NCBI GenBank assembly: GCA_013178095.1
Contig: JABLXK010000014.1
Location: 1-64,000 of the forward strand
DNA from: Anaerolineae bacterium
GTDB taxonomy: Bacteria; Chloroflexota; Anaerolineae; Anaerolineales; Anaerolineaceae
Direction of reading: 5' to 3'
DNA: 64,000 nt
Notes under the pieces: generated by a model
Seen by the model: the letters and a program-made list of their open reading frames with translations, nothing else
Databases searched by the model: none
What the model was told of the DNA's origin: nothing
Shown: piece after piece, positions 1,130 through 49,100 of the stretch
Layout of the letters: every line of letters begins with the position of its first letter
Position numbering within the stretch: the stretch's first letter is position 1
Translations under genes and position numbers: made by a program

Positions 1130-1178
1130 TTGTAAAAATGGAAGAGTTGCGGTATTATACATTCTCAATATTGAATAT
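1130..1178 (+). promoter_or_regulatory. Promoter and ArsR-type operator of the first arsR
   Basis: A -35 TTGTAA (1130-1135) and a -10 TATTAT (1153-1158) are separated by 17 bp. Immediately downstream, 1159-1178 has ATTC-N8-GAAT (ATTC 1161-1164, GAAT 1173-1176) with a perfect TCAATATTGA core (1165-1174). This operator would cover the transcription start and touch the start codon at 1177. The same ATTC-N8-GAAT layout occurs at 5139-5158 and 9377-9396. Confidence 0.6.
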
Positions 1179-1593
1179 GAAAACAAATACATTTGAACAA
1201 CAAGCTGGCAATATATTATCGGTACTCGGCAACCCTTTTCGAATCCAGTTGGTATTCGCGCTTGGGGCGCAGGAGGCCTGCGTTTGTCATCTTGAAGCCC
1301 TGCTGAAAAAGCGCCAGGCGTATATCTCGCAGCATTTGATGGCTTTGCGCGAAGCGGGCATGCTTGAAACCCGGCGGGATGGGAAATTCGTATACTATCG
1401 CCTGTCAAATCCGGAAATCCTCGAACTGATCCAGCATGCCGCTGAAGTTGCCGGCGTGGATCGCAGCCAATTCCCCCGGCAGCGCGAAAATGAGGTGCTT
1501 GACAAATGTATTTGCCCGCACTGCGATGGCGGAAGCAGTGTGTCACATCTTGAAAAAACCGAAAATCTCAGTGTTGCAAACAAACAAATTTAA
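1177..1593 (+). CDS. ArsR/SmtB-family repressor with CxC and C-terminal CxCPxC
   Basis: This 138-aa winged-helix repressor senses metal(loid) or thiol state by family knowledge. A CVC motif at residues 35-37 sits in ACVCHLE, the classic arsenite-binding position at the recognition-helix end. The recognition helix is RQAYISQHLMALREA and the wing is RRDGKFVYYRL. Unusually, a second cysteine cluster CICPHC lies at residues 111-116. An in-frame ATG exists at 1084, but the promoter at 1130-1158 lies downstream of it, so I chose 1177. No Shine-Dalgarno is evident. It is followed by a thioredoxin-fold gene and an ArsP-type permease, which it probably controls. A paralogue lies at 8966-9364. Confidence 0.85.
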   Translation: MKTNTFEQQAGNILSVLGNPFRIQLVFALGAQEACVCHLEALLKKRQAYISQHLMALREAGMLETRRDGKFVYYRLSNPEILELIQHAAEVAGVDRSQFPRQRENEVLDKCICPHCDGGSSVSHLEKTENLSVANKQI

Positions 1594-1617
1594 AGTAGAA
1601 AGGTTCAGGAAATATCA

Positions 1618-1860
1618 ATGGTAACAATCAAAGTATTAGGTTCCGGCTGCGCGAACTGCAAGCGCTTGGAACAAATTGCCGCAAAAGTTGTCGATTCCCT
1701 GGGTATCGAAGCCTATATTGAAAAAGTGACGGACTTCCAGAAAATTATGGATTATGGCATCATGTCGACTCCTGGTCTGGTCATCAATGAGAAAGTGGTT
1801 TCCTACGGCCGCATCCCTTCCGAAGCGGAAATCAATACCTGGTTGCAAGAAATTGCTTAA
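1618..1860 (+). CDS. Small thioredoxin-fold protein (redox-active disulfide protein 2 type)
   Basis: This 80-aa protein has an N-terminal beta strand and the active site GCANCKRLE (CxxC at residues 11-14). The cis-proline loop follows as STPGLVINEKVVSYGR, and the C-terminal helix is SEAEINTWL. This compact form is typical of thioredoxin-like proteins encoded beside ArsR and ArsP/UPF0718 permeases. It likely passes electrons or thiol-bound metal(loid) to the permease or a partner; that role is inference. AGGAA lies about 8 nt before ATG. The gene follows arsR by 24 nt and ends before a strong terminator. Confidence 0.85.
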   Translation: MVTIKVLGSGCANCKRLEQIAAKVVDSLGIEAYIEKVTDFQKIMDYGIMSTPGLVINEKVVSYGRIPSEAEINTWLQEIA

Positions 1861-1886
1861 CTGATTTCAGCTTTAAGTTGGAATAA

Positions 1887-1911
1887 AAAAACCCTGTCGC
1901 CCAGGGTTTTT
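1887..1911 (+). terminator. Rho-independent terminator after the thioredoxin-like gene
   Basis: Arms AAAAACCCTG (1887-1896) and CAGGGTTTTT (1902-1911) form a perfect 10-bp stem with a 5-nt loop, ending in a T run. The permease gene follows 51 nt later, so it either has its own promoter or is reached by read-through. Confidence 0.8.
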
Positions 1912-1962
1912 CAATGGGATTTACACATTCAACCTAATGAATATTTTATTGAGAGAATGGAA

Positions 1963-3441
1963 ATGAACAATCTTTTGAACACCATCACGACTCTGCTTTT
2001 TGGAGGTTTGGGAAATTTGGCTGCTTATCTGGCTGCGCACGTGCTGTTGTGCCTGCTGCCTGCTTTTTATATTGCCGGGGCCATGACGGCCCTGATCCCC
2101 AAAGAGACCATCACGCGCTATCTGGGCCGCAGCACGCCGAAATGGATATCCTACCCGGCTTCGGCCGCAGCGGGTTTCCTGTTGGCGGTCTGCTCTTGCA
2201 CGGTCATCCCGCTTTTCGCGGGGATCTATAAGAAAGGCGCCGGGCTCGGGCCGGCAATTACCTTCCTTTTCGTGGCGCCCGCTGTCAATATTCTGGCATT
2301 GACATACACCGGTACCGTGATTGGCATGGACCTGGCGTTGGCGCGCCTCATCCTTTCCCTGGCTTTTGGCATTGGCATCGGGATTTTGATGTCCATCATT
2401 TTCAATAAGGAAGACGCGGAACATGACCGCGCCACCGACGCCATGTTTGCGCAGCAAAAAAGCATGCGCCGCCCCGCCTTGATTTTCTTGCTGGTGCTCG
2501 TGGCTTTGCTGGTCGTCGGTACTTTCCAGATCGATGTCCTGAAAAATGTTTATTTCGAGTTATCCCTGCCCATATCCGGCGTGGATAAATTCCAGAATTT
2601 CCTCCTTGCGCTGGTTCCGTTTGACGCTTCGCGCGGTGAAGAGGGCGTGAGCGTGCAGGGCGCAGTGATGATCGGCCTGTTGCTCCTGATCGGGCTGAGC
2701 TCCTGGAAAGGTCTGGAAAAGATCCATGAAGGCTTCAACGCATGGACCTGGGTGTCAACCGCCCTGGTCGGCGTCACGCTGGCCTTTGCCTCGTTGAGCC
2801 TGCAGCCTGCGGCAGGATACCTGGGCATCCAATTGACCGGCAAGTTCTTCGGCGTGCTGATTTCATTGGTCATCCTGGGATGGATGTTGAAGAATAAATT
2901 GACTGAAGACGAAACCCGCGATTTTCTCTGGGAAACCTGGCGCTTCATCAAGCAGATCTTCCCATTGCTGATCGTTGGCGTTTTTGCGGTGGGGATCATT
3001 CGCGGTTTGATCAAACCCGAGTGGATCGAATCGTTGGCCGGCCGCAACACCTTCCTCGGCAACTTCATCGGCGTGTTATTCGGTGTGTTTATGTATTTCC
3101 CCACATTGGTGGAAGTCCCCATCGCGCAAATGTTCCTCGGCCTTGGCATGCACCGCGGTCCGCTGCTGGCTTATCTTATTTCTGACCCCGAATTGAGCCT
3201 GCAAAGCATTTTGATTACCGCCACCATTATCGGTAAACTGAAAGCGTGGGTTTACGTTGGCTGGGTGGCGTTATTCAGCACCGTTGCGGGGCTGCTGTAC
3301 GGCGCCTGGATCAATGGAACACCGCTGGCATCGATCCTGCTGTACCTGGTTGCGTTTTTAGTTGTGGTCGCCGTGGTTTCTCTCGTAGTCAACTGGTTTA
3401 AGGCAAGTAGAGAAAGCATGTCAGAAAAGGCAGGGCTCTGA
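1963..3441 (+). CDS. ArsP/UPF0718-type permease (organoarsenical or metal(loid) efflux)
   Basis: This is a 492-aa polytopic membrane protein. Its first half carries the family hallmark around residues 77-90 (AVCSCTVIPLFAGIYKKGAG, CxC at 77/79), followed by PAITFLFVAPAVNILAL. A related segment, PTLVEVPIAQMFLGLGM, marks the second half. In characterised members (ArsP_1 domain) the function is export of trivalent organoarsenicals; other members are unassigned. GAGAG at 1951-1955 is correctly spaced for ATG 1963 rather than ATG 1957. Its neighbours (ArsR, thioredoxin-like protein, Zn-ribbon protein) fit a thiol-reactive substrate. The exact cargo is unknown. Confidence 0.8.
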   Translation: MNNLLNTITTLLFGGLGNLAAYLAAHVLLCLLPAFYIAGAMTALIPKETITRYLGRSTPKWISYPASAAAGFLLAVCSCTVIPLFAGIYKKGAGLGPAITFLFVAPAVNILALTYTGTVIGMDLALARLILSLAFGIGIGILMSIIFNKEDAEHDRATDAMFAQQKSMRRPALIFLLVLVALLVVGTFQIDVLKNVYFELSLPISGVDKFQNFLLALVPFDASRGEEGVSVQGAVMIGLLLLIGLSSWKGLEKIHEGFNAWTWVSTALVGVTLAFASLSLQPAAGYLGIQLTGKFFGVLISLVILGWMLKNKLTEDETRDFLWETWRFIKQIFPLLIVGVFAVGIIRGLIKPEWIESLAGRNTFLGNFIGVLFGVFMYFPTLVEVPIAQMFLGLGMHRGPLLAYLISDPELSLQSILITATIIGKLKAWVYVGWVALFSTVAGLLYGAWINGTPLASILLYLVAFLVVVAVVSLVVNWFKASRESMSEKAGL

Positions 3442-3498
3442 TCCGCCCATTTACCTGAATCCGCTAAACCCTGGACAATTTCCAGAAAGGAGCCTGCG

Positions 3499-3651
3499 AT
3501 GGAAAAAGAGTCTAAAAAAATCATCTGCTATAAATGCAAAAAAGATACCGGCTACACTGAGGAAATTATTCTCAAGGGGAATATCAAGGAAGACCTGAAG
3601 TGTCCGCATTGCGGTGCTGTTGTCATCACCAAAAATGTAGACTATTGCTGA
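3499..3651 (+). CDS. Very small zinc-ribbon-like protein (50 aa)
   Basis: This open frame of 50 codons has a strong Shine-Dalgarno (AAAGGAG, 3486-3492) 6-7 nt before ATG. Cysteines lie at residues 10 and 13 (CYKC), 35 and 38 (CPHC) and a terminal Cys50. The two CxxC pairs, 21 residues apart, look like a rubredoxin or zinc-ribbon knuckle. It follows the permease by 57 nt on the same strand and precedes a hairpin. I do not recognise a named family. A metal-binding or thiol-buffer role is inference. Confidence 0.7.
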   Translation: MEKESKKIICYKCKKDTGYTEEIILKGNIKEDLKCPHCGAVVITKNVDYC

Positions 3652-3664
3652 CACATTCCAATTG

Positions 3665-3698
3665 CCCCGCAGCGATCAAAAGACCGAACGCTGCGGGG
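3665..3698. terminator. Hairpin between convergent genes
   Basis: CCCCGCAGCG (3665-3674) pairs perfectly with CGCTGCGGGG (3689-3698) over a 14-nt loop. It separates the plus-strand Zn-ribbon gene from the minus-strand DUF3343 gene. Only a short TTT follows on the plus strand, so it is a probable bidirectional terminator of moderate strength. Confidence 0.6.
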
Positions 3699-3699
3699 T

Positions 3700-3927
3700 T
3701 TACATCTGCACGATTTCTACAGAAGCATTTGCGAAATGGTGCTTTTCGATAACTTTCTTCACAGCTTCTATGCTGGAAAGATCAATTCTCAGGCAATTAC
3801 CGCAGGAAGAACTCAAGAACCGGGGAACCGGGATCAGTTTGCTTTGAATACCGTCCATGTGAAGTAAATTCTCAAGCCGCATGGCCTGGCTGGTGGATTC
3901 CACCAAAACCACCGCAAATTCTTCCAT
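3700..3927 (-). CDS. DUF3343 (putative Se/S carrier) protein
   Basis: This 75-aa protein begins VVLVESTSQAMRLENLL and carries SSSCGNCLRID (Cys42, Cys45), the pattern of the DUF3343/putative Se/S carrier-like family. By family knowledge these small proteins co-occur with selenium or sulfur transfer genes and are thought to carry persulfide or perselenide. It lies 9 nt downstream of a cysteine desulfurase gene on the same strand, which would supply that persulfide. The gene is short but of full family length. Confidence 0.8.
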   Translation of the reverse strand: MEEFAVVLVESTSQAMRLENLLHMDGIQSKLIPVPRFLSSSCGNCLRIDLSSIEAVKKVIEKHHFANASVEIVQM

Positions 3928-3936
3928 CTCTTTTTT

Positions 3937-5118
3937 TTACCTTTCTGACAATGCTCTCAAAGCTTCTAGTGCATAATTAATTTCGGATAATTGATTGAAA
4001 TAACCCAGGCTGAATCGGATGGTGCCATCGGGAAATACCCCCATCGTCCGCGCGGCGGCCGGCGCGCAATGCAAGCCGACTCTGCAAAAAATGCCGTAGC
4101 GCTCATCGAGCCATTCGCCAATCAGACCAATATCCTTTCCATTCAGCGTGAATGGGATCACTGAGGTTTTCTCTGCCGCATCGCTTGGGCCGTATAGCCT
4201 GAGGTTTTCTATCGACCGCGCGCCTTCCAGAAATGCCCTGGTGAGCGATGCTTCGTGCGCGCGAATCTGGTCGATCCCGTTTTGATCGATCCATCGCAGC
4301 GACGCCAATAAACCCGCCAATCCAATCACGTTCAGTGTCCCGCTTTCAAATTTATCGGGCAAAAATGCGGGCTGCACTTCATTTTCTGAATTGCTGCCGG
4401 TTCCACCCATCTTAAGCGGTTTGAAATTGGCAAGGTCAACGCGCTCGCCGATCACCAAACCGCCGGTGCCCATCGGCCCGTAAAGCGATTTGTGTCCGGT
4501 GAACGCCAGCAGATCAATGTGGTCTTTTTGCATGTCGATCGGTATCACGCCCGCAGTCTGCGCAGCATCAACCATCAGGAGCAGGTCATTCTCGTGTGCG
4601 ATCCGCCCGATTTCTGCCGCAGGCATTAACGTACCGCTTACGTTGGAAGCATGGGTCATCACAATCATACGAGTGTTTTTTCGAATTTCCCTCCTGACGT
4701 CGGAAGGATCTAGATACCCCTCCCTGGAACATGGGGCAATGGATAAATCAACGCCTTGCGCTTGAAGATACCGCAGCGGCCGCATGACTGCGTTATGCTC
4801 CATGCTGGTCGTGATGACATGGTCGCCGGCTTTTAATAATCCAAACAGCCCAAGGTTGATCGCTTCTGTGACATTGCTGGTGAAAATCACGCGCAGGGGA
4901 TCGGCGCAATGGAACAATCCGGCAATCGCCTCACGCGTCTCATAAACGATCCGGGCGGAATCGATCGCCATTCGGTGGCCGGCCCTGCCGGGATTAGCGC
5001 CTGCCTGACAGGAAAATTCAGCCATTGCCTCGATCATCTGGGGAGGTTTTGGCCAACTGGTTGCGGCATTATCAAAATAGATTTTTTTATCGTGTGCTTG
5101 CGATGAGAAATCAGCCAT
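3937..5118 (-). CDS. Class V PLP-dependent cysteine desulfurase (NifS/SufS-like)
   Basis: This 393-aa protein starts with the family's KIYFDNAATSWPKP. The PLP lysine is in FTGHKSLYGPMGTGG (Lys210), with H108 in SMEHNAVMRPL and D184 in LLMVDAAQTAG. The persulfide cysteine is Cys351 in CRVGLHCAPAA, near the C-terminus. It mobilises sulfur or selenium from cysteine or selenocysteine; specificity is not readable. Pairing with a DUF3343 carrier favours a trafficking role over bulk Fe-S assembly, and no SufBCD or IscU is nearby. The start at 5118 lies 21 nt from an ArsR-like operator shared with the divergent gene. Confidence 0.85.
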   Translation of the reverse strand: MADFSSQAHDKKIYFDNAATSWPKPPQMIEAMAEFSCQAGANPGRAGHRMAIDSARIVYETREAIAGLFHCADPLRVIFTSNVTEAINLGLFGLLKAGDHVITTSMEHNAVMRPLRYLQAQGVDLSIAPCSREGYLDPSDVRREIRKNTRMIVMTHASNVSGTLMPAAEIGRIAHENDLLLMVDAAQTAGVIPIDMQKDHIDLLAFTGHKSLYGPMGTGGLVIGERVDLANFKPLKMGGTGSNSENEVQPAFLPDKFESGTLNVIGLAGLLASLRWIDQNGIDQIRAHEASLTRAFLEGARSIENLRLYGPSDAAEKTSVIPFTLNGKDIGLIGEWLDERYGIFCRVGLHCAPAAARTMGVFPDGTIRFSLGYFNQLSEINYALEALRALSER

Positions 5119-5138
5119 GGTCAGCAGCCCGTCATAAC

Positions 5139-5168
5139 ATATTCTTTAGTATGAATATATATTATAAT
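5139..5168 (+). promoter_or_regulatory. ArsR-like operator and -10 in a divergent promoter region
   Basis: The 20-bp site 5139-5158 is ATATTCTT-TAGT-ATGAATAT, an 8-4-8 inverted repeat with one mismatched pair. It has ATTC at 5141-5144 and GAAT at 5153-5156, the same spacing as sites 1159-1178 and 9377-9396. A perfect -10 TATAAT (5163-5168) follows for the rightward gene. Both divergent genes start within 60 bp, so one repressor could control both. Confidence 0.6.
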
Positions 5169-5173
5169 ACAAC

Positions 5174-6520
5174 ATGCTGAATAAAAATCATGGTGCTCAC
5201 TTGAAGAAAAGCTATCTGCTATTCATCCTGCCCTTGCTGCTCCTGGCGCTGTTTAACATACAAAATGCCTACGCCAGGGAGAATGATCCGCCAATGCCCG
5301 TAAACGTATATTTCTTTTGGGGGGATGGATGCCCGCATTGCGCCGCCGAAAAACCATTCCTGGAATCATTGGTTGAACAATATCCTCAGGTAAAACTGCA
5401 TGCGTATGAAATATATTACGTTGAAAAAAACCGCGAATTATTTAAAGAATTTGGAACTGCTCTCGACTTCGAACCGCAAGGCGTGCCAACCACCATTATT
5501 GGCAGACAATATTGGGTTGGTTTTCGCGAGGAATATAAGACAGAGATTGAAGCCGCAATCAGGGCATGTATGCAGGATCATTGCGAATTCGATCCCGGAC
5601 AAGTTGTCCTAAGAGAAGATTCCGATCAAGTTCAAAAACCATCCGCGTATCTAATAAATATCCCGTTGATCGGCGTAATCGATCTGGGAAACCAGTCGCT
5701 CATGATCAGCTCTGCGATCATTGGTTTTGTTGATGGGTTTAATCCTTGTTCTCTCTGGGTCTTGTCTGTTCTGCTTGCTATCACTTTGCATAGCGGCTCG
5801 CGCTCGAAGACCTTGATTGTAGGATTAACCTTCTTATTGACAACCATGCTCGTTTACAGTCTGTTTATTACAGGCGTGTTTACTATTCTTTCTTATGTGG
5901 GATATCTCAAATGGATCCAGGCATTGGTAGCCGCCATCGCGTTGATTTTTGGCTTTGTCAACCTAAAAGATTATTTTTGGTATAAAGAGGGTGTTTCGTT
6001 CACGATCTCCGATAAACACAAACCCAAAATATACCAGAATATGCGCAGCACCGTGGCGAATCAACGCTCCACTTGGGGATTGATTGGTTCAACTGTGGTC
6101 CTGGCTATCGGCGTTTCCCTGATCGAATTTGCCTGCACGGCCGGTTTTCCTGTAATTTGGAGCAACCTGGTTTCCTCAAGCAATATCAGTGCCGGATTCT
6201 ATATTCTTCTGCTGGCTGTTTATATGCTCATCTATTTATTGGATGAACTGGTTTTCTTCGGCATGGCAGTTGTTTCCATGAAGGCCAGCCGCCTGGAGGA
6301 AAAGCATGGCCGTCTCTTGAAGCTGATCAGCGGTGTTGTCATGCTGGTTCTGGGCGTTGTTATGCTGGGGCAACCCGAATTAATGAACCGCATGGATACT
6401 TCTTTGGTCGTTTTCGGAATAGCACTGGCGCTATCATTTCTTGTTTTATTGATCCATCAAAAACTGCTTCCCGGATTTGGAATTTATATCGGCACCGGGT
6501 TGAAGAAGAAGCAAAAATGA
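5174..6520 (+). CDS. Exported thioredoxin domain fused to a DsbD/CcdA-like membrane domain
   Basis: This 448-aa protein has a signal peptide (KKSYLLFILPLLLLALF, likely cut after NAYA). Next comes an extracytoplasmic thioredoxin-fold domain with FFWGDGCPHCAAEKPF (CPHC) and cis-Pro GVPTTIIG. A membrane domain follows, with SAIIGFVDGFNPCSLWVL and IEFACTAGFPVIWSNL, the paired-cysteine layout of DsbD/CcdA electron carriers. It likely moves reducing power across the membrane to periplasmic thiols. ATG 5174 lies at the expected transcription start, so the message may be leaderless. TTG 5201, giving a cleaner signal peptide, is an alternative start. Confidence 0.8.
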   Translation: MLNKNHGAHLKKSYLLFILPLLLLALFNIQNAYARENDPPMPVNVYFFWGDGCPHCAAEKPFLESLVEQYPQVKLHAYEIYYVEKNRELFKEFGTALDFEPQGVPTTIIGRQYWVGFREEYKTEIEAAIRACMQDHCEFDPGQVVLREDSDQVQKPSAYLINIPLIGVIDLGNQSLMISSAIIGFVDGFNPCSLWVLSVLLAITLHSGSRSKTLIVGLTFLLTTMLVYSLFITGVFTILSYVGYLKWIQALVAAIALIFGFVNLKDYFWYKEGVSFTISDKHKPKIYQNMRSTVANQRSTWGLIGSTVVLAIGVSLIEFACTAGFPVIWSNLVSSSNISAGFYILLLAVYMLIYLLDELVFFGMAVVSMKASRLEEKHGRLLKLISGVVMLVLGVVMLGQPELMNRMDTSLVVFGIALALSFLVLLIHQKLLPGFGIYIGTGLKKKQK

Positions 6521-6584
6521 TGAACAGGCATCCCGCGAATATGCATTCTGGAAAATATTGAATAAGATAAGAGGAAAATACAAA

Positions 6585-7088
6585 ATGACGAGAACCCGCA
6601 AAAAACCGCAAACGAAAACCAGTAATAATAATTTATGGATCATCGCCGGTGTGGCGGTTGTTGTTCTTTCAATCATCCTGATCAAAGGGCAAATGGGCAA
6701 AGCCAAATCTGAAACATCCAGCCAGGCGTCAGAAAATTCTTCAGCCGCAGCCGTTGCACAAGCCGCTCCTGAAACGCCTGAAGAACAATTCAATCGCTTG
6801 TATGGTCAGAAAAAACCTGTTTTTGCTTTCTTTCACTCAAACAACTGCCAACTCTGCCTGGATATGATCGCGGTTGTAGATGAGGTCTATCCTGAATATG
6901 AAGGCAAAGTAGCCCTGGTTGATATCAATGTTTATGATGAAGTAAATCAAAATTTATTACAGCAATTTCAAATCAGGGCAATTCCCACCGAGTTCTTCTT
7001 TAACAGCAATGGCGAAATTTTTAGCAATGTTGGCTTGATGTCGCGTGATCAACTCCGTGAAGCCCTGGAAAAAATCGCTGGAGAATGA
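6585..7088 (+). CDS. Membrane-anchored thioredoxin-like protein
   Basis: This 167-aa protein has a basic N-terminus, one membrane anchor (LWIIAGVAVVVLSIILI), a low-complexity Ser/Ala linker, then a thioredoxin fold. The active site is FFHSNNCQLCLDMI (CQLC) and the cis-Pro loop is AIPTEFFF. It is likely an outward-facing thiol oxidoreductase re-reduced by the CcdA encoded next. The start is ATG 6585 because AGAGGAAA precedes it, although TTG 6558 is open upstream. Its stop overlaps the next gene's start, which implies translational coupling. Confidence 0.85.
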   Translation: MTRTRKKPQTKTSNNNLWIIAGVAVVVLSIILIKGQMGKAKSETSSQASENSSAAAVAQAAPETPEEQFNRLYGQKKPVFAFFHSNNCQLCLDMIAVVDEVYPEYEGKVALVDINVYDEVNQNLLQQFQIRAIPTEFFFNSNGEIFSNVGLMSRDQLREALEKIAGE

Positions 7089-7768
7089 ACGTGAACATCA
7101 ATCCATCCGTATTAACGCCGACCTCCGTATTGGGCTATCTCCTGGTTTTTTTGGGAGGCGTGGTTACAAGTATCAGTCCATGTAATGCAGCCATGATTCC
7201 GTTGATTATCGGATATATCGGCGGTTCTGTTGACCTTCCCAGGCGCAAGGCGTTTGCTATTTCCCTTGTATTCAGTATCGGTCTGGCGATCACATTTATG
7301 GTCTTGGGCATCGTCGCTTCATTGGTTGGGGGAATGCTGGGGGGAAGCAGCAAGGGTTGGTATTACGTCGTCGCGTTGATTTGCCTGGTGATTGGCCTGC
7401 AGATGTTGGGAGTAATCCACATCGATCCACCTTCCTGGTTCTCCGCCTTGCGCGAAAAGATCAAAATCAGGAATTTGTTCGGCGCGCTTCTGCTGGGATT
7501 GGTATCCGGTCTGGTCGCTTCGCAATGCGCCACGCCGGTTTTGGCCGCCATCCTCACTTATGTGATGGCCCGCAAGGAAAGCCTCGCGTACGGCGCGATT
7601 TTATTATTCATTTACGCCTTGGGAAGGGGTGTTCCGATTGTGCTTGCCGGCACATTTACGGGTGCGTTGAAAGGCATTCGAAGTTTTGGCAAATTTTCGG
7701 AATCAATGGAAAAAGTCAGTGGAGTGATCCTCATTCTCGTTGGCTTTTATTTTATTTGGATTGCGTAG
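7085..7768 (+). CDS. ccdA: CcdA-type transmembrane thiol-electron carrier
   Basis: This 227-aa, roughly six-helix protein carries both CcdA cysteines: SISPCNAAMIPLIIGYIGG near residue 33, and ASQCATPVLAAILTYV near residue 145. CcdA transfers electrons from cytoplasmic thioredoxin to an extracytoplasmic thioredoxin-like partner; here the CQLC protein just upstream, overlapping by ATGA, is the obvious partner. No cytochrome c maturation genes are in view, so the target is probably thiols of this cluster rather than cytochromes. That target is inference. Confidence 0.85.
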   Translation: MNVNINPSVLTPTSVLGYLLVFLGGVVTSISPCNAAMIPLIIGYIGGSVDLPRRKAFAISLVFSIGLAITFMVLGIVASLVGGMLGGSSKGWYYVVALICLVIGLQMLGVIHIDPPSWFSALREKIKIRNLFGALLLGLVSGLVASQCATPVLAAILTYVMARKESLAYGAILLFIYALGRGVPIVLAGTFTGALKGIRSFGKFSESMEKVSGVILILVGFYFIWIA

Positions 7769-7991
7769 TGATAAATGGCAGTGCCTGACTTGGAATCGCT
7801 CCTGAAAAAAATCCAAAATGCTTGAAAGAATTCAGGCGTGGATAGAAATATTCCGAAAAACACCGCTGTGAAATTCCACTGCTTGCGCAGATATAGATTT
7901 ATCAAGCCGTCGTCAACGATGTTTCCTCTTCAAGTGCATAATACCGATAAAAGAAAATCGTTTCCATGTTCAACAATCCATAAAAATTACT

Positions 7992-8300
7992 TTATAAATT
8001 TGGCAACTCTCCTGCAAATCCCATTTCAACCAATTCCAGGATACTGCCCTTCTGTGCGCTGAAAATCTTGATTCCCTTGTTTTTTAGATTTTCAATGATT
8101 TCATCTTCAATTGTTCCGCTAATTAAAGCCTCAATTCCCTCACCGATTGCCTGGTTAATCATATCGGTTGCATTGCCCTTATTCTCAATTGCGCTGAATT
8201 TAAGATGATCATCCACAATCATTAAAAAGCCGCACGCACTGAGATTTGGCTCAATCCATGCGCCTAAACCTGCGCCCCTGGAACTTACTGCGATTTTCAT
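7992..8300 (-). CDS. NifX/NifB C-terminal-like Fe-Mo-cofactor-binding family protein
   Basis: This 102-aa single-domain protein belongs to the dinitrogenase iron-molybdenum cofactor family. It starts MKIAVSSRGAGLGAWIEP and has the typical NATDMINQAIGEGIEALISG, then IEDEIIENLKNKGIKIFSA. Such stand-alone members bind metal clusters outside nitrogenase in many anaerobes; their roles are poorly known. No nif genes are present. GGAGG precedes ATG well. It is the last gene of a minus-strand series (ArsR, ferredoxin, HdrA-like, NifX-like), set off by a hairpin. Confidence 0.8.
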   Translation of the reverse strand: MKIAVSSRGAGLGAWIEPNLSACGFLMIVDDHLKFSAIENKGNATDMINQAIGEGIEALISGTIEDEIIENLKNKGIKIFSAQKGSILELVEMGFAGELPNL

Positions 8301-8319
8301 TTATCAGCCTCCGTTTTAC

Positions 8320-8357
8320 ATCACACAGGAGGGCAATCTTCGACCCTCCTGTGTGAT
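8320..8357. terminator. Perfect 14-bp hairpin between HdrA-like and NifX-like genes
   Basis: ATCACACAGGAGGG (8320-8333) pairs perfectly with CCCTCCTGTGTGAT (8344-8357) across a 10-nt loop. On the minus strand no T tract follows. It may be a partial terminator or an mRNA-stabilising intercistronic stem that lowers expression of the NifX-like gene. Confidence 0.6.
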
Positions 8358-8381
8358 GTGTTTTGGAAAGAACTTTTTCAA

Positions 8382-8744
8382 TTAATCCGCAACACTGGCA
8401 ATCATATCCTTGATGGCCTGAACAGCCTGATCGGTGTTCATGTTTCGGATGTCAACCCCAGTCATTTTGGTTTTGTCGAAACCGGCTGCGTCAAAAGCAT
8501 CCCGGAACATCTTCACCTGCATGTTGGGGTCGCAAGCTGCCACAAACAAGTGATCCGTTTCTCCGCCCTTAAGCAGCGTGGACAGGAACTGGTCGCCGTC
8601 AGTCGCGCAAAGCTGCGGATGGACCGCAACGTAATCCACCAGTTTATCGCGCCGGATCGCATTGCCCACTTCGAAAATATTCATCTCTTGAAAAGACGGG
8701 CAGGTGCCCTGGCATACGCACATCAATAAACCTTTTTTGGACAT
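8382..8744 (-). CDS. Small HdrA-like (heterodisulfide reductase subunit A N-terminal-like) protein
   Basis: This 120-aa protein has a Cys-rich start CVCQGTCPSF (Cys9, 11, 15), then HPQLCATDGDQFL and LFVAACDPNMQVKMFRDAF. These segments follow the order seen at the N-terminus of HdrA proteins (CxCG, yCSxpGQ, AACSPxxHExxF) but without the FAD domain. It may bind an Fe-S cluster and hand electrons to the ferredoxin encoded just upstream. The annotation is by pattern, and the exact reaction is unknown. It is a stand-alone domain, not a visible truncation, because the start and stop regions look normal. Confidence 0.6.
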   Translation of the reverse strand: MSKKGLLMCVCQGTCPSFQEMNIFEVGNAIRRDKLVDYVAVHPQLCATDGDQFLSTLLKGGETDHLFVAACDPNMQVKMFRDAFDAAGFDKTKMTGVDIRNMNTDQAVQAIKDMIASVAD

Positions 8745-8769
8745 AGCTTACTCCTTTAATAAATATATA

Positions 8770-8973
8770 TTAGTTGTCGCCAAAATATGTGATCGCTTCC
8801 ACCGGACAGATTTTGGAACAGCCTCGGCAGAATTCAACGCAGTTATCGGGGTTGAGAACTTTGGGGTAACCGTCCTCTCCAACCTCATATACCTCGTGTT
8901 CGCAGAAATTCGAGCAGGTGTAGCACTGGGTGCATAAATCTTCATTAATGATGGGATACCAATTTTTAGCCAT
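8770..8973 (-). CDS. Short 2[4Fe-4S]-type ferredoxin
   Basis: This 67-aa protein has LCTQCYTCSNFCEHEVYE followed by NCVEFCRGCSKICPVEAIT, two CxxCxxC-type clusters with modified spacing (first CxxCxxCxxxC; second CxxxCxxCxxxCP). It is an electron carrier, probably for the HdrA-like protein downstream. Its start overlaps the end of the arsR paralogue by 8 nt, so both are translated from one repressor-controlled message. Confidence 0.85.
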   Translation of the reverse strand: MAKNWYPIINEDLCTQCYTCSNFCEHEVYEVGEDGYPKVLNPDNCVEFCRGCSKICPVEAITYFGDN

Positions 8974-9364
8974 TTATTTTCTTTCCTCTGTGTTGATCAG
9001 ATTTTTCCTGTTTGGAAATTTTACTTTCACACTCCGGACAGTTGCAGTCAATAGCCTGAAAGTCAATTTTTTTTGTTGAAGTACATTTTTTTGTTTCCTT
9101 GATGATTGGAATTACTCCTTTCTCCTTCATGCGATAATAGACGTTTCTACCCTCGCGTCGGTCGCTTACCAGTTCGTTCTCACGCAGGCACATCAAGTGC
9201 TGTGATAAATATGCCTGCCGATAACCTAAAATTGCTTCCAGATGGCATACACACATTTCATTATTGGCTTCAAGGATCTCCAGTATTGCCAAACGGACCG
9301 GGTGTGAAATAACTCGCAAAAGCCCGGCAGAATCCTTATAGGTCTCGCGGATATGGTTAGTCAT
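8966..9364 (-). CDS. Second ArsR-family repressor with CxC and C-terminal CxCPxC
   Basis: This 132-aa paralogue of the 1177-1593 repressor has EMCVCHLEAILGYRQAYLSQ (CVC at residues 38-40), the wing RREGRNVYYRM, and a C-terminal CNCPEC at 107-112. Both proteins carry the same two cysteine sites, a distinctive pairing. ATG 9364 is preferred over TTG 9370. It is first in the minus-strand operon with ferredoxin, HdrA-like and NifX-like genes and probably represses itself through the palindrome at 9377-9396. Confidence 0.85.
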   Translation of the reverse strand: MTNHIRETYKDSAGLLRVISHPVRLAILEILEANNEMCVCHLEAILGYRQAYLSQHLMCLRENELVSDRREGRNVYYRMKEKGVIPIIKETKKCTSTKKIDFQAIDCNCPECESKISKQEKSDQHRGKKING

Positions 9365-9376
9365 ATTCAACTTTTC

Positions 9377-9422
9377 ATATTCGTTATTACGAATATAATA
9401 ATACGATTCCAGTCCATGTCAA
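9377..9422 (-). promoter_or_regulatory. Promoter and perfect ArsR operator of the second arsR
   Basis: The consensus -35 TTGACA (9422..9417), a 16-bp spacer and the -10 TATTAT (9400..9395) read leftward. The operator 9377-9396 is a perfect 8-4-8 inverted repeat, ATATTCGT-TATT-ACGAATAT, overlapping the -10 end and the start of transcription. It fixes the consensus for the other two sites (1159-1178, 5139-5158). Confidence 0.75.
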
Positions 9423-14869: not shown

Positions 14870-16456
14870 CTATACCTTGCGGGTGATGCGGTGCAGGTGG
14901 TTGGGGTTGTTCTCCATCACACCCGCGCCCAATGCCGCCGAGCTGTGCCGCAGGGCTTTCTCGGCCTGGTGCGCTTCCAGGTCGGCGCGCCGCACCAGGT
15001 AGCCGGTCACGCGCACGAACTCGGAAGTCGCGCTGCCAATCGACAGGTTGCGGATGCCGGCATGATGCGCCCCGTCGATGATGTCCAGCACGGCTGCCGG
15101 GTTGGCCGCCGCGGTCTGGTCGAATTCCAGGATGGTGCTCACACCGCCCATGATCCAGCGGTGCGTGGGTGCTTCCGTGAGAATATGTTGGTAGAGCTCG
15201 GGCTCCTGCCCGGAGGGCACGCGCACGGCGGGTGTGGTATCCAGGTCGCTGGTGATGCCCACCTGCGCGTGGAAGCAGGCTCGCCCGCCCGTGCCTGCGC
15301 AGGCCGGGATGGGGTTGGCTTCCAGGATCTCATGGACGCGGTCGGTGATGCGCGCGGCCAATGCGTTGGCGCCTGCGTCCCAGCCATAACGCGCCTCTGC
15401 CTTGCCGTTGGCCTGACTGAAGTGGTTGGCCGCCTCGGCCAGCGCGAACACGCCCGCGTAGGCGCTGAACTTGTCCTGTTGCAGGTAGCCCTCGTCCACC
15501 CAGAAGTTGTCCTCGAACCAGCGCGCGTCCTCGATGATGTAGCGTGAGCGGCTTTCGATGATCTCGGCCCAATACTTTCCGATGCGCGGCAAGGTCTCGT
15601 CCAGAAAGCGCTCGGGGTCGTCCCCGGAATATTCCGCGGCGCGTTTCAGGTTCAGTCGCACCAGCGTGTAGATGCCGCCGCGCAGGCGCATGGCGTTGTA
15701 ACAGGAAGCGATCACGTAGTCCTCGCCCCAATCCTTGAGCATGGCCGGGTGGTTAAGGAAGTAGGGCTTGGTGACCTCCAGGGCGTTGCCCACCGCCTGC
15801 AGCGCGAATTGGCGCGGGGTAACCTGCGGGTCATAGCGCAGGGTCAGGTTGGTGATGGTCTGCAGCTCGCGGTCCACCTCCAGCAGCATCCGCCCGGCTT
15901 TGCTCTCCGCCGGACCCAGGTCGGCGTGCACGAATCCGCTGGGGTTCAGGCGATCCACCAGCAGCCAGAAGGAGCGCAGCACCTTGCGGGCTAAATCTTC
16001 CGGTAGGCTGTCGATATAGGGTTCCAGCAGCTCGTCCAGCCGCCCGATGAACACCGGCAGCGCTTCGCACGGGAAATACTTGTAGGCGGTCAATAAACTG
16101 GCGGTGGCTTCCATTAAGTCCCCGGCTGGTTTCAATTCCAGAAAAGCGCTGCCGTTCTGCAGCAGGCGCGCGTAATCGGGGGCGGCGTAGCGCGGGTAGA
16201 AATGCGCCGGGCCTTCGCCCAGGATGCACAGGATGCCGGATTCCAGCAGCTCCGCCGCTTCGTCCGACATGGGCGGGTAGGGCAGCGCGGCGGCGGCCAT
16301 GCCGGCCAGCGCGTCGCGTTTTTGTTCGTAGATCAGGCTGCGATCGTGGATCGTATCCGCCACGCTCTGCTTGAACATCGCCGCCATGCCGGGGGTCAGA
16401 CCCTCCGTGAAATTCTCGAATTCGTGAAACGGAACCGCTAAAGTCTTCTTTTCCAT
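14870..16456 (-). CDS. yjjI: YjjI-family glycyl radical enzyme
   Basis: This 528-aa protein matches the YjjI/DUF3029 branch of glycyl radical enzymes. The C-terminal radical loop is EFVRVTGYLVRR with Gly485 as the probable radical residue, 43 residues from the end. An upstream segment, YNAMRLRGGIYTLVRLNLKR, is also family-like. The catalytic cysteine cannot be assigned with confidence. As far as I know the YjjI reaction is not firmly established; in enterobacteria the yjjI/yjjW pair lies next to deoxynucleoside catabolism genes, and here it sits with nucleoside uptake and cleavage genes. Its activase yjjW ends 25 nt upstream of it. The enzyme would be oxygen-sensitive. Confidence 0.85.
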   Translation of the reverse strand: MEKKTLAVPFHEFENFTEGLTPGMAAMFKQSVADTIHDRSLIYEQKRDALAGMAAAALPYPPMSDEAAELLESGILCILGEGPAHFYPRYAAPDYARLLQNGSAFLELKPAGDLMEATASLLTAYKYFPCEALPVFIGRLDELLEPYIDSLPEDLARKVLRSFWLLVDRLNPSGFVHADLGPAESKAGRMLLEVDRELQTITNLTLRYDPQVTPRQFALQAVGNALEVTKPYFLNHPAMLKDWGEDYVIASCYNAMRLRGGIYTLVRLNLKRAAEYSGDDPERFLDETLPRIGKYWAEIIESRSRYIIEDARWFEDNFWVDEGYLQQDKFSAYAGVFALAEAANHFSQANGKAEARYGWDAGANALAARITDRVHEILEANPIPACAGTGGRACFHAQVGITSDLDTTPAVRVPSGQEPELYQHILTEAPTHRWIMGGVSTILEFDQTAAANPAAVLDIIDGAHHAGIRNLSIGSATSEFVRVTGYLVRRADLEAHQAEKALRHSSAALGAGVMENNPNHLHRITRKV

Positions 16457-16481
16457 AATTTCAAACCTCGTTAATCAGCAA

Positions 16482-17330
16482 TTATAGCGAACGCTCCACC
16501 TGCGTCAGGCCGCAGGCTCTGGCGACGTCCATCAAATTTTCCATACTTTCATCACTGGGGGAAGGCCATTCCGCGGCCGCGCCGCTCGTGCCATGCGGGC
16601 GGAAGCGCAGCAGCCGCAAACGGATACCCGGGTCGATGCCGGCCAGCAACTGCGCCGTTTGGAGCATGGAATCTTTGTCCTCGGTGAAGCCCGGCGCGAT
16701 CACCTGCTGCACGGCGTATAGCTTGCCCTGCGCGTGCAGGAACTGGATCGTTTCCAGCACAGGCGCCAGCGGCTTTCCGGTCAATCGCTCATGTGTCTGA
16801 TCGTCCCCGGCTTTCAGGTCCACCATAGCCATGTCCAGCACCGGCAGCAGTGGCAGGTATGCCTGCGGACCGGCATAACCGTTGGTCTCGATCAGCGTGG
16901 TCAGGCGCGAGTGCCACTTGACTTGCTCAAAGAAAGCTGTGATGAAGGGGAGCTGCAGCGAGACCTCGCCGCCCGAAATGCTCACTCCCGAGATGAAAGC
17001 CTGCAGCGGGGCTAATTCCGCCCACAATGCCTGCGGTGTATAACGGCTGACGCGCGGCGAGCTGAAGCTGGGGCAGGTTTTGATGCAGGTATCGCATTCC
17101 ACGCAGCGGTTTCTATCCCAGGTCACACGCCCGTTTTCCATGCGCAAGGCGCCCTGCGGGCAAGCTTGCACGCAGATGCCGCAGTCGCTGCAAAAGTTGA
17201 TGGTGAAGGGATTGTGGCAGTACAGGCAATGGAAGTTGCAGCCCTGCACGAAAACCACGGCGCGGTTGCCCGGCCCGTCCACAAAACTGCGCGGGAGCAC
17301 GTGGTTGATCATGCCGAAAGTGGTTTCCAT
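16482..17330 (-). CDS. yjjW: YjjW-type radical-SAM glycyl radical enzyme activase
   Basis: This 282-aa protein has a radical-SAM cluster CNFHCLYC at residues 31-38. An inserted double ferredoxin domain follows (CSDCGICVQACP at 47-58 and CVECDTCIKTCP at 76-87), then the GGEVSLQ SAM-binding motif. It would generate the glycyl radical on YjjI, encoded directly downstream. The ferredoxin insert marks the family that activates non-PFL glycyl radical enzymes. The start at 17330 gives the expected METTFG...INHVLPRSFVDGPG opening. Confidence 0.9.
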   Translation of the reverse strand: METTFGMINHVLPRSFVDGPGNRAVVFVQGCNFHCLYCHNPFTINFCSDCGICVQACPQGALRMENGRVTWDRNRCVECDTCIKTCPSFSSPRVSRYTPQALWAELAPLQAFISGVSISGGEVSLQLPFITAFFEQVKWHSRLTTLIETNGYAGPQAYLPLLPVLDMAMVDLKAGDDQTHERLTGKPLAPVLETIQFLHAQGKLYAVQQVIAPGFTEDKDSMLQTAQLLAGIDPGIRLRLLRFRPHGTSGAAAEWPSPSDESMENLMDVARACGLTQVERSL

Positions 17331-45392: not shown

Positions 45393-46147
45393 GCCTCCAG
45401 CCGATAAAGCCGTGCCTCCCTGGCGCTTCCAAAAACTGCCAGCCATCCGCAGGTTTCCGCCGGCAGCGGCAATTTTCTCAAGCGGCACTCGCGGAATTCA
45501 AAGAAACAGCCATTCTCCCGCATGCCCCTGACGGTTCCGCTCGATATCGCTTCCAGTGTGTTCACCTGGCTGGGATGGATCGCCAGCCCGCATCCAGCGG
45601 CTTTAAGCAGGGCTTCCTTGGCGCACCAACAATCGAGGAATTGCGCGCCTTGCCGCTCGGTTGACGTCCCGATCCAGGCTGAATATTCTTCCAGCGAGAG
45701 GTATGTGCGCGCCAGGCGCTTCAAATCCAGCATCGCCTGGACTTTTTCAGCATCGATGCCCACCTCGCAGTCGCAGCCGAAAGCGATCAAACTTGCATTT
45801 TCTGTGTGGGTCAGGTTGAATGAAAGCCTTTGGGTTTGCTCCCGCCCAGCCAATTGCGGTTTGCCTTGCGCCCCAGCCTTGAATTCAATCGAAGCGGCCG
45901 ATTGCTGCAGCAACTTTGCCAGCAGGCAATGCAAAACCCCGTGGCTGAGTATAAATTCCTGCCTGGCTTTATCATTCAAAAATCGTTCGCGCCGGCTTTT
46001 TTCGTCGACTGACAGCAGCTTTCCCATTGGCCGCGTGAAGTGAGTAAACTCCTTCGGGGAAAATTGCCACACGGCAATTTCGCCCGGCTTCAATCCTGGC
46101 ACTGTATCGGGTATTTCCCAACCGCCCCGGATCAAATCATCGCTCAT
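45341..46147 (-). CDS. Sfp-type 4'-phosphopantetheinyl transferase
   Basis: This 268-aa protein has LSFNLTHTENASLIAFG, VGIDAEKV (Mg-binding Asp/Glu) and FLDCWCAKEALLKAAGCGL (W-x-x-KEA). The length fits the Sfp/Gsp class that activates carrier domains of secondary metabolism. It would load the two T domains of the NRPS encoded upstream, with which it overlaps by 11 nt, so the two are translated together. It is the last gene of the 45-64 kb block. Confidence 0.88.
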   Translation of the reverse strand: MSDDLIRGGWEIPDTVPGLKPGEIAVWQFSPKEFTHFTRPMGKLLSVDEKSRRERFLNDKARQEFILSHGVLHCLLAKLLQQSAASIEFKAGAQGKPQLAGREQTQRLSFNLTHTENASLIAFGCDCEVGIDAEKVQAMLDLKRLARTYLSLEEYSAWIGTSTERQGAQFLDCWCAKEALLKAAGCGLAIHPSQVNTLEAISSGTVRGMRENGCFFEFRECRLRKLPLPAETCGWLAVFGSAREARLYRLEAHLLADMLSSEGRKVEK

Positions 46148-49100
46148 TTTGCTGTTGCTGCTCTACGCTTTCAAGAGCCCGCCTGAGCGCCGCCGCCAGG
46201 CTGCGCACGTAAGGCTCGACCATGATGGAATTGTGATTGCCTTCGCAGGTATAAACGATCAGACCTCTCAATGCCAGCCGGCGCCATAGCGGTTCCGGCC
46301 GCACCATCTCGCTCCACTCCCGCTGCCTGGCTTTGAAATAGGTTACCTTGCCGGCGTATGGCCTGGTCACGTATGCATCCAACGCACGCTGGTTGATTGT
46401 CTCCACTTTTTGGAATGCCGGCGGCTTGCGCAACCAGCGCTCACGGTCGGCCTGCTCCTGCGGATTGACGTATTTCGTGCGGCGCGCAAACGCCCTCAAC
46501 CGGCCGCTCACGACGCCGATGGTTTTTTTGAAGTAATCGACTTTCTTGGGCAGGCTTAACCGCAGCCACTTTCCTGCGATGAATCCCAACCGCTCCACGC
46601 GGTCAAACGCAATCACCAATTTTCCGGGTTTGAGCTCCGGCGGCAGATTTTCCATCACCACCGTGTCGAACATCGCCAGCAGCGCCGTCTTCTCCCCGGC
46701 TGCGGATAGCTGCTGGGCCATTTCGTATGCCACTGTTCCGCCGAATGAATATCCTCCCAGGTAATAAGGTCCGTGCGGTTGTACTTCGCGGATTTCTTTC
46801 AGGTAAAGCGCGGCCATTTCCTCCACACTTTCCAAAGGCCTGGTCTTGCCGTCCACCCCCTGCGCGCGTAGTCCGTAAATGGGCCGGTCCAAATCCGCCA
46901 GGTAAGCGCTCAGGCTCCGGTAACTCAGGACGTCCCCGCCGATGGCATGCACCAAAAATATCGGGGGCTGGCTGCCGCCGTCTTTCAGTTTGACCAGGGA
47001 TTTCCACGAAGGATTCCAGCCGGAAGCGCTGATTGCTTTGGCCAAATCGCGGATAGTTGGGTTTTCCAATAGCGCCACCAGCGGCACGGAGACTCCAAAC
47101 CGGCTTTCAACCTCAGTCATCATGCGCGCGGCCAACAGCGAATGGCCGCCGATCTCAAAGAAGTTATCCTCCACGCCGATTGTTTGCCTGCCGAGCATCT
47201 CCTGCCAGATTGCCAGCATTTTCTCTTCTGCCGGGGTCTCGGGTCCCTTTTGCGTTTTTTGGCCGGTGACCTTGGCCCAATCCGGCTCGGGCAGGGCTTG
47301 TTTGTCGATTTTTCGGTTTGGAGAAAGCGGCAATTCCTTTAATATTTGATAAAAAGCTGGCTGCATGTATTTCGGCAGCCGGGTGTTCATGTGGCTGCGA
47401 AGCTGCACCTCATCCACGCTGCTGCCCTTGTCCGCCACCAGGTAAGCCACTAATTGCTCTGTCTTTGAAGGATCGCTGCGCTTGACTACCACCGCGTCGG
47501 AGATTCCTTTGAACTGCATCAAGGCGGTTTCTATCTCACCGGGTTCGATGCGAAAGCCCCTGATCTTGATCTGTTCATCGCTGCGCCCCAGGTATTCCAG
47601 CGCACCGTCCGGCCGCCACAGGACAATGTCGCCGGTTTTGTATACCCTGCCGCCCGCTCCGCCAATGGGATCAGGCAGGAAACGTTCCGCCGTCAGGTCC
47701 GGCCGGTTGAGGTAGCCCCGCGCCAGGCAATCGCCCCCGATGTACAGCTCGCCGGCCGCTCCCTTCGGCGCCAGCCGCATGCGTTCATCCAGCACGTAAA
47801 GCTTGACATTGTCGATCGCTTTGCCGATCGGGGCTTCGCGCTGGCCGTATTGCGCGCGTTCCTGCGCTGTCAACCGGCAGCGCGTGACCACGCAGGTGCA
47901 CTCTGTCAATCCGTAAGTGTTTTGCAAATCGATGGACTCGAATCCCAGGCGGTGCCAGGTGTTCAGGTGCGCCGGCGAAACCCTTTCCCCGCCGATGATG
48001 ATCATACGCAGCGTTTCCGGTAATTTTTCGCGGCTCTTCTCCAGGTACTGCACCAATTCCTGCCAGAAAGCCGTGGGCAGATCCAGTATGGTGAGACCCC
48101 ATTCGCGGCAGCGCTGCAGGAAATGCGGAATGGAATCCAGCATATCGGTTGAACGCAGCGCCAGCATGGCGCCGCTGCAAAGCGTCGGGAAGATTTCCTC
48201 CGCCGAGGTGTCGAAATTCAATGAAGCGAACTGCAGCATGCGGTCCCCGGGATGGATCCCGTATTGGCGCATAGTGCTGGTGGTGAAATTGACCAGCGGG
48301 CGGTGTTCCACCATCACGCCTTTCGGTTTTCCGGTGGAACCGGAAGTGTAGATGCAGTAAGCCAGATCTTCAGCTTTCACGCCGGCGGATATGGCTCCAT
48401 CCGCCTGGGCGTCGATCTCTTGCGCAGCACGGTCGAAGCGCACAACTTTTGCGGCAGCCGGTGGTAAATGGCTAAAGGTATCCGAATCGGTGAGGATGAT
48501 GGCCGGCTTCGCATCCTTCACAATATTCAGCAAGTGTTCCTGCGGGTAGGCTGGATCCAGGGGCAGGTACGCGCCGCCGGCTTTCAACACCGCCAGCATA
48601 GCTATGATGGTACTCTCAGTCTTGGGCAAATTCAGGCCCACCAGATTACCAGGCTGCAATCCCATGCCGATCAACCAATGGGCGGTTTGGTTGGCTTTGC
48701 GGTTGAGTTCGGCGTAAGTCAGGGTTTGCCCGTTGTGAAAAACGGCTGCCGCTCGCGGGGTTTCTTCAACTTGTCTCTCGAATAGTTCATGGATCGGGGT
48801 GTCCCGCGGATAAGGGGCGCTGCCCCCGCTCCACGCCAATAATTCGCGCTCTTCATCCGCCGTCAGGATCGAATATTCCGCGATGGATTTCCCGGGGCTT
48901 TGCATGGCTTGCTGAAGTATATATTTGAAATGCGCCGTCAATTCCTGAATGGTCGCTGGATTGAATAGATCGGTGTTGTATTCAAAGGCAAACTGCAATC
49001 CGCCTGCGTCCTGGTTAAATTCAACGTTCAAGTCGTAGGTGACCGTGCCGGTCTCGAAATCGAAGTATTTGAAAGTAATTTCTCCATCATTCGAGTTGCA

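Follow-up and report, generated by a model that had tools for sequence, protein, structure and literature searches.

The first 64,000 nucleotides of contig JABLXK010000014.1, referred to here as the window, come from an Anaerolineaceae genome (G000; 2.94 Mb, 94% complete) and carry at positions 1177-9364 a 13-gene cluster that is probably an arsenic resistance regulon of this strictly anaerobic bacterium, possibly acting on antimony or organoarsenicals as well. Its pump and thiol proteins are of known types, and the whole is an ars regulon of a known type to which additions that look undescribed have been joined, namely a stand-alone protein resembling the N-terminal domain of HdrA (hdr) with a ferredoxin (fd), and a cysteine desulfurase (csd) with a selenium/sulfur (Se/S) carrier-like protein (SeS) behind an ArsR-type operator. 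One operator is common to four promoters and is conserved in relatives, where the gene modules recur and where orthologues occur together with arsD, arsA, arsC or acr3. Because the same operator stands at four promoters and co-location is conserved in relatives, the cluster is not a chance assembly, and arsenic is the most likely substrate. A preliminary description, made from the letters alone, had proposed a metalloid-handling system under ArsR control, which these operators and the neighboring ars genes of relatives bear out; every gene it listed was found at the position given, and nearly all of its family assignments agree with Pfam and NCBIfam profiles scored against the cut-offs of the models. 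The genes and operators are as follows.

1160..1177: operator CATTC-TCAATATT-GAATA at the start of arsR1, with promoter-like TTGTAA-17-TATTAT just upstream
1177..1593, + strand: arsR1, As(III)-type ArsR repressor (PF01022, HTH_5, and NF033788 above cut-off; CVC in helix 3, C-terminal CICPHC)
1618..1860, + strand: trx3, small thioredoxin of the ArsE/MTH895 type (redox-active disulfide protein 2), CANC (Thioredoxin_3; TIGR00412)
1926..1943: operator CATTC-AACCTAAT-GAATA ahead of the permease gene, overlapping promoter-like TTTACA-16-TATTTT
1957..3441, + strand: ArsP_1 permease, 494 residues (PF03773, 244 bits, cut-off 32)
3499..3651, + strand: putative Zn-ribbon protein, 50 residues, two CxxC (sub-threshold Zn-ribbon matches only)
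3700..3927, - strand: SeS, Se/S carrier-like protein (DUF3343; Se_S_carrier PF11823, 63 bits, cut-off 25)
3937..5118, - strand: csd, cysteine desulfurase, catalytic Cys in GLHCAP (TIGR01977, 477 bits, cut-off 377)
5140..5157: operator TATTC-TTTAGTAT-GAATA between the divergent csd and Trx-CcdA genes
5174..6520, + strand: Trx-CcdA fusion, 448 residues, an extracytoplasmic thioredoxin domain (CPHC) joined to a membrane domain resembling CcdA (cysteines of NPC and CTAGFP conserved)
6585..7088, + strand: trx2, membrane-anchored thioredoxin, CQLC (PF13098, Thioredoxin_2, and PF00085 above cut-off; CxxC invariant)
7085..7768, + strand: CcdA/DsbD-type electron carrier (PF02683, DsbD_TM, 112 bits), overlapping the trx2 gene
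7992..8300, - strand: small NifX/NifB-like protein (PF02579, 25.1 bits, just below the cut-off of 26.3), adjoining hdr in several relatives
8382..8744, - strand: hdr, stand-alone HdrA N-terminal Fe-S-domain-like protein, 120 residues (CxCxGxCP, HPQLC and CDP invariant in the alignment)
8770..8973, - strand: fd, 4Fe-4S ferredoxin (Fer4_10 above cut-off), constant partner of hdr
8966..9364, - strand: arsR2, As(III)-type ArsR repressor (PF01022, NF033788; CVC, CNCPEC)
9378..9395: operator TATTC-GTTATTAC-GAATA ahead of arsR2-fd-hdr-nifX, abutting promoter-like TTGACA-16-TATTAT

The palindrome YATTC-N8-GAATA occurs at four distinct sites in the window, all of them in the cluster, against an expectation of 0.19 and with none of 100 shuffles reaching this count. 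The motif was read off the cluster itself, so that the window count alone is circular, and the independent test is conservation in relatives. Twenty permease loci from other genomes contain 34 ATTC-N8-GAAT sites, and 27 of these immediately precede arsR, the permease gene or trx3, the chance share for such upstream sites being 4.5% (p about 1e-30). At hdr loci, sites of the same form precede arsR, fd, hdr or trx3; the operator is also present ahead of trx2 in relatives, and its conservation extends to the clusters of Ornatilinea apprima and Thermoanaerobacterium. None of 25 Trx-CcdA homologues that stand alone in relatives has it. Genome-wide, the slightly wider form YATTC-N8-GAATR has 25 sites, and those inspected outside the cluster lie mostly within open frames, with spacers richer in G and C and no link to the cluster system. 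A promoter-like sequence is overlapped or abutted at all four operators, such matches being only slightly commoner in the region than in shuffles. The common operator makes membership of genes in the regulon easy to test.

Both repressors score above the cut-offs for HTH_5 and HTH_metalloreg, and their cysteines, CVC in helix 3 (conserved in relatives) and the C-terminal CxCPxC, make up an As(III)-type site at which metal binding is predicted. In relatives, the operator was detected at 21/28 ArsRs with CVC and CxCPxC and at 2/26 of those without either motif. A trivalent arsenical would thus bind the cysteine sites of both repressors, and the arsenical-bound proteins would leave the ATATTC-N8-GAATAT operators at the four promoters, as the motifs and the conservation of the sites suggest.

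By homology, an arsenical efflux protein is encoded beside ArsR, the ArsP_1 gene adjoining arsR1. The permease carries the ArsP cluster-1 motifs HVLLCLLPAFYIAG and LAVCSCT, the cluster-1 motif and the place of ArsP in ars operons both being well documented (PMC4435449), and its C32, C79 and C81 are invariant across 23 homologues. The small thioredoxin trx3 belongs to the ArsE family by score (TIGR00412, 107 bits, cut-off 62) and is present in 18 of the 20 permease loci, nearly all of which, across the order, hold the trio arsR-trx3-permease. Nine Acr3 genes of relatives score above the cut-off, and six of them, in six relatives, lie within 3.5 kb of a permease homologue. In one congener (G002, L133) a unit of trx3, permease (79%) and Zn-ribbon protein (84%) faces arsR-arsD-arsA-arsC, the Zn-ribbon gene adjoining that of the permease as it does in the window. 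In the congener Pelolinea (G001, L153/L033), a metagenome-assembled genome that is the nearest named relative judged by the hdr protein (88%), ccdA-trx2, arsR2-fd-hdr-nifX, arsR-arsD-arsA, csd-SeS and Trx-CcdA succeed one another within about 12 kb. A 752-residue open frame, xanthine-dehydrogenase-like by eye and without a family search, lies there between nifX and arsR-arsD-arsA (L153:10890-13148).

The hdr product had been described as HdrA-like, which holds for the N-terminal domain by profile (PDB 9sfi_A, E 4e-4) and by fold (Foldseek against 7bkb_A, E 3e-5, TM 0.81), but nothing beyond that domain is matched in its 120 residues. It thus shares the N-terminal-domain fold and cysteine pattern of HdrA of heterodisulfide reductase, whereas the flavin adenine dinucleotide (FAD) domain of full HdrA is missing, HdrBC are absent and a ferredoxin adjoins. 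Similarly, the assignment of the neighboring small protein as NifX-like falls slightly short of the family cut-off. A scan of 84,980 species genomes with hdr returned 80 of the 120 loci found, spread over Chloroflexota, Bacillota, Bacteroidota, Caldisericota, Bipolaricaulota and several archaeal groups, and in almost all of these 80 the ferredoxin adjoins; counted over about 100 loci of bacteria and archaea, nearly every one has the pair. A plasmid search with hdr gave zero matches. Neighbors within 8 kb were counted in 57 hdr loci long enough to judge and in 24 control loci, the controls all coming from one bacterial family and the search models having been built from hdr loci. An ArsR lay near hdr in 39/57 (controls 1/24), DGC-domain proteins in 25/57 (0/24), trx3 in 15/57 (0/24), and at least one of Acr3, ArsA, ArsD, ArsM, ArsP and ArsC in 29/57 (3/24); for Acr3, ArsA, ArsM and nifX taken singly the differences were not significant. 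The DGC-domain proteins number 62 copies in 31 clustered hdr loci, often two or three consecutively and mainly in the second hdr clade, and loci with them near hdr-fd include L196, L218, L221 and L131.

Elsewhere in the order, the csd-SeS pair usually lies within yedE-tusA-csd-SeS, often with selD (yedE and tusA named by eye), and the genome itself holds a paralogous copy of this kind at G000:C17:286245, linked to a selD of the selenocysteine type with an in-frame TGA. The window pair resembles this selenium-trafficking pair in its two families and their order, but its csd shares a branch (87/87) with the Pelolinea copy that lies in the cluster, separate from the selD-linked csd, the pair has none of the selD, yedE and tusA neighbors present at the C17 copy, and an ArsR-type operator stands ahead of it. 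The SclA model scores this csd at 398 bits against a cut-off of 525. In Acetobacterium and Eubacterium (Eubacteriaceae), a csd of a separate lineage lies 3 kb from hdr-fd; therefore, hdr-fd-ArsR loci acquired a cysteine desulfurase on two or more occasions. Because of this, and because the window csd has its operator region in common with Trx-CcdA, a role of csd-SeS in the arsenic response is likely, the simplest reading being the supply of sulfur for Fe-S repair, with selenium supply a less likely one. Persulfide or selenide may take part in the arsenic chemistry. As a general partner of the system csd-SeS was rejected, its association being confined to the congener Pelolinea and to the independent csd lineage of Eubacteriaceae. 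In acetogens a protein with an Fe-S domain (PF04060) is encoded beside csd near hdr-fd, and a similar one lies near hdr in a Chloroflexota genome (the loci being L218, L221, L226 and L122). A second selD of the present genome (G000:C18:294261-295187) is part of a 753-residue open frame without TGA and looks fused to another domain of ~440 residues, an arrangement that recurs in G001, G003, G007 and G013.

Several observations weigh against an arsenic regulon. Neither Acr3 nor ArsD was recognised in this genome, at about 94% completeness, by a genome-wide search that did not extend to ArsB and ArsC, and the cluster itself contains no arsenate reductase; with Acr3 and ArsD not recognisable, the ArsP permease is therefore the best candidate exporter of the genome. 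In thirteen of the 57 loci counted, the 8 kb around hdr contain no ArsR and no core ars gene. In relatives, the Trx-CcdA fusion mostly sits elsewhere, as does csd-SeS, usually with selenium genes, and in Pelolinea no operator precedes csd. Moreover, the ArsR structures nearest in sequence are BigR, NolR, SmtB and SqrR, persulfide sensors among them. This last point would agree with a sulfide or persulfide stress regulon in which the ArsR pair is a sulfane-sulfur sensor like BigR or SqrR and the thioredoxin, CcdA, HdrA-like and csd proteins manage persulfides, and in the cluster of Ornatilinea an ArsR gene is indeed followed by a rhodanese-like one (L131:11809-12243). Such a regulon is nevertheless improbable: the BigR equivalog NF040642 gives the two ArsRs 60.3 and 59.0 bits, far below its cut-off of 155, their conserved cysteines are the helix-3 CVC and C-terminal CxCPxC, and ars genes adjoin in relatives.

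We likewise give little credence to selenium handling or detoxification, with csd-SeS delivering selenium and the permease exporting, or an ArsR sensing, a selenium compound. The genome does use selenium, as the selD with in-frame TGA beside yedE-tusA-csd-SeS indicates, the window csd-SeS is paralogous to that selD-linked pair, and the permease has weak matches to SaoE of the Sec-assisted organometal system. On the other hand, the cluster is without selD, yedE and tusA, none of its genes requires an in-frame TGA, and the permease is tied to Acr3, ArsA, ArsD and ArsC in relatives; the SAO/Tso selenoprotein systems were rejected, SaoE and SaoT scoring far below cut-off (67.6 against 325 and 16 against 65), as does TsoB (87 against 805), and the frames being open without reading TGA. 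A third explanation would confine the ars operon to arsR1-trx3-permease and regard the other thiol and metal genes as chance neighbors, in line with the mostly separate occurrence of the Trx-CcdA fusion and csd-SeS in relatives and with gene orientations that are both convergent and divergent. It is an unlikely one, as a single operator is present in four copies, each at a cluster promoter, the same modules are recombined in congeners, and fd-hdr lies near an ArsR in most loci. The co-occurrence in related genomes that the preliminary description had looked to is seen for arsR-trx3-arsP and fd-hdr, but only in part for csd-SeS and the Trx-CcdA fusion.

Under the arsenic reading, the ArsP-type permease would export a trivalent arsenical, as its family and context suggest, and the thiol proteins would support it. 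The trx2-ccdA pair is conserved in relatives. Two DsbD/CcdA-type carriers had been named in the preliminary description; the protein at 7085..7768 is above the DsbD_TM cut-off, but the 448-residue fusion reaches the cut-off of no Pfam family. Its N-terminal thioredoxin fold is modelled at high confidence and its cysteines are invariant in 23 homologues; its membrane half aligns weakly with the DsbD_TM protein (hhalign E 4e-4, probability 34%), with both conserved cysteines in register (NPC, CTAGFP), and a fold search with the model gave weak thioredoxin matches only, and none for the membrane half. The fusion was rejected as a marker of the system, being stand-alone and without the operator in most genomes that have it. 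Electrons delivered inside the cell by the ArsE-type thioredoxin, and across the membrane by trx2, CcdA and the fusion, may keep dithiols reduced and help to release or reduce bound arsenical, such proteins being known ars-operon partners. The HdrA-N-like protein and ferredoxin could form a low-potential electron module feeding this thiol chemistry in place of reduced nicotinamide adenine dinucleotide phosphate (NADPH)-thioredoxin reductase. In what is the weakest step, csd and SeS would provide sulfane sulfur, its simplest use being the repair of arsenite-damaged Fe-S clusters and thiols.

Transmembrane thiol reduction had been put forward as a sign of novelty, an argument that fails, CcdA, thioredoxin, redox-active disulfide protein 2 and ArsP all being on record as members of ars operons (Castillo and Saier 2010, PMC2963123). 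For persulfide transfer, the other half of that argument, novelty may still hold. The cluster has ArsR, the ArsP permease, Thioredoxin_3, thioredoxin and CcdA in common with those operons but lacks arsC, arsB, acr3 and arsA; unlike them, it has four promoters with one operator and adds the HdrA-N-like protein, ferredoxin, NifX-like protein, Trx-CcdA fusion, csd and SeS. The published organoarsenical system ArsEFG, which according to the account in PMC9144182 (citing Chen et al. 2019) combines an ArsE-type protein with the transporter ArsG, is similar in its small ArsE-type thioredoxin and in a membrane protein of the DsbD_TM type that an NCBIfam profile relates to ArsG; here, on the other hand, the CcdA protein reaches 55 bits with the ArsG model NF040495, whose cut-off is 200, the exporter is ArsP_1 and ArsF was not identified. 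The permease, whose transport substrate is predicted, shares PF03773 and the cluster-1 cysteine motifs with the ArsP methylarsenite permease family, and differs in its 494 residues. Near arsC-1 of Fusibacter 3D3, genes for ferredoxin and a redox-active disulfide protein are mentioned (PMC9751042). A search of the open-access literature, with most subscription journals outside its scope, found no report of a cysteine desulfurase, or of the HdrA-like/ferredoxin/DGC set, as parts of ars operons, and a defence-system library gave zero matches.

How strict anaerobes resist arsenic is poorly understood; these organisms face As(III) and methylated arsenicals, and the NADPH and glutathione chemistry of textbook ars genes may be absent from them. 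A bolder and rather doubtful extension of the arsenic reading is that HdrA-N with its dedicated ferredoxin, often accompanied by DGC proteins, is an undescribed electron module of arsenic detoxification in anaerobes, bacterial and archaeal, feeding low-potential electrons into thiol or Fe-S reactions of the arsenical, and that a csd coupled to it, both in this genus and independently in Eubacteriaceae, supplies sulfane sulfur or selenium directly to the arsenical, e.g. to give a thio-arsenical for export. If true, the ferredoxin-HdrA-N pair, which recurs beside ars genes in Chloroflexota, Bacillota, Bacteroidota, Caldisericota and archaea, would generally supply low-potential electrons to arsenic chemistry, and csd-SeS under an ArsR-type operator would be a first link of persulfide or selenium transfer to metalloid defence.

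Other genes of the window were noted in passing. A small S-adenosylmethionine (SAM) methyltransferase gene at 301-876, divergent from and adjoining arsR1, has weak TPMT and TehB matches; by score it is not an ArsM, and its product could be a metalloid methyltransferase. At 14870-17330, a glycyl-radical-enzyme-like protein and a radical SAM activating enzyme, both named by eye, are encoded next to nucleoside hydrolase and nucleoside-type ABC transporter genes. Further along, at 46137-51959, lies a gene for a 1940-residue protein like a nonribosomal peptide synthetase, adjoined by a phosphopantetheinyl-transferase-like gene (by eye).

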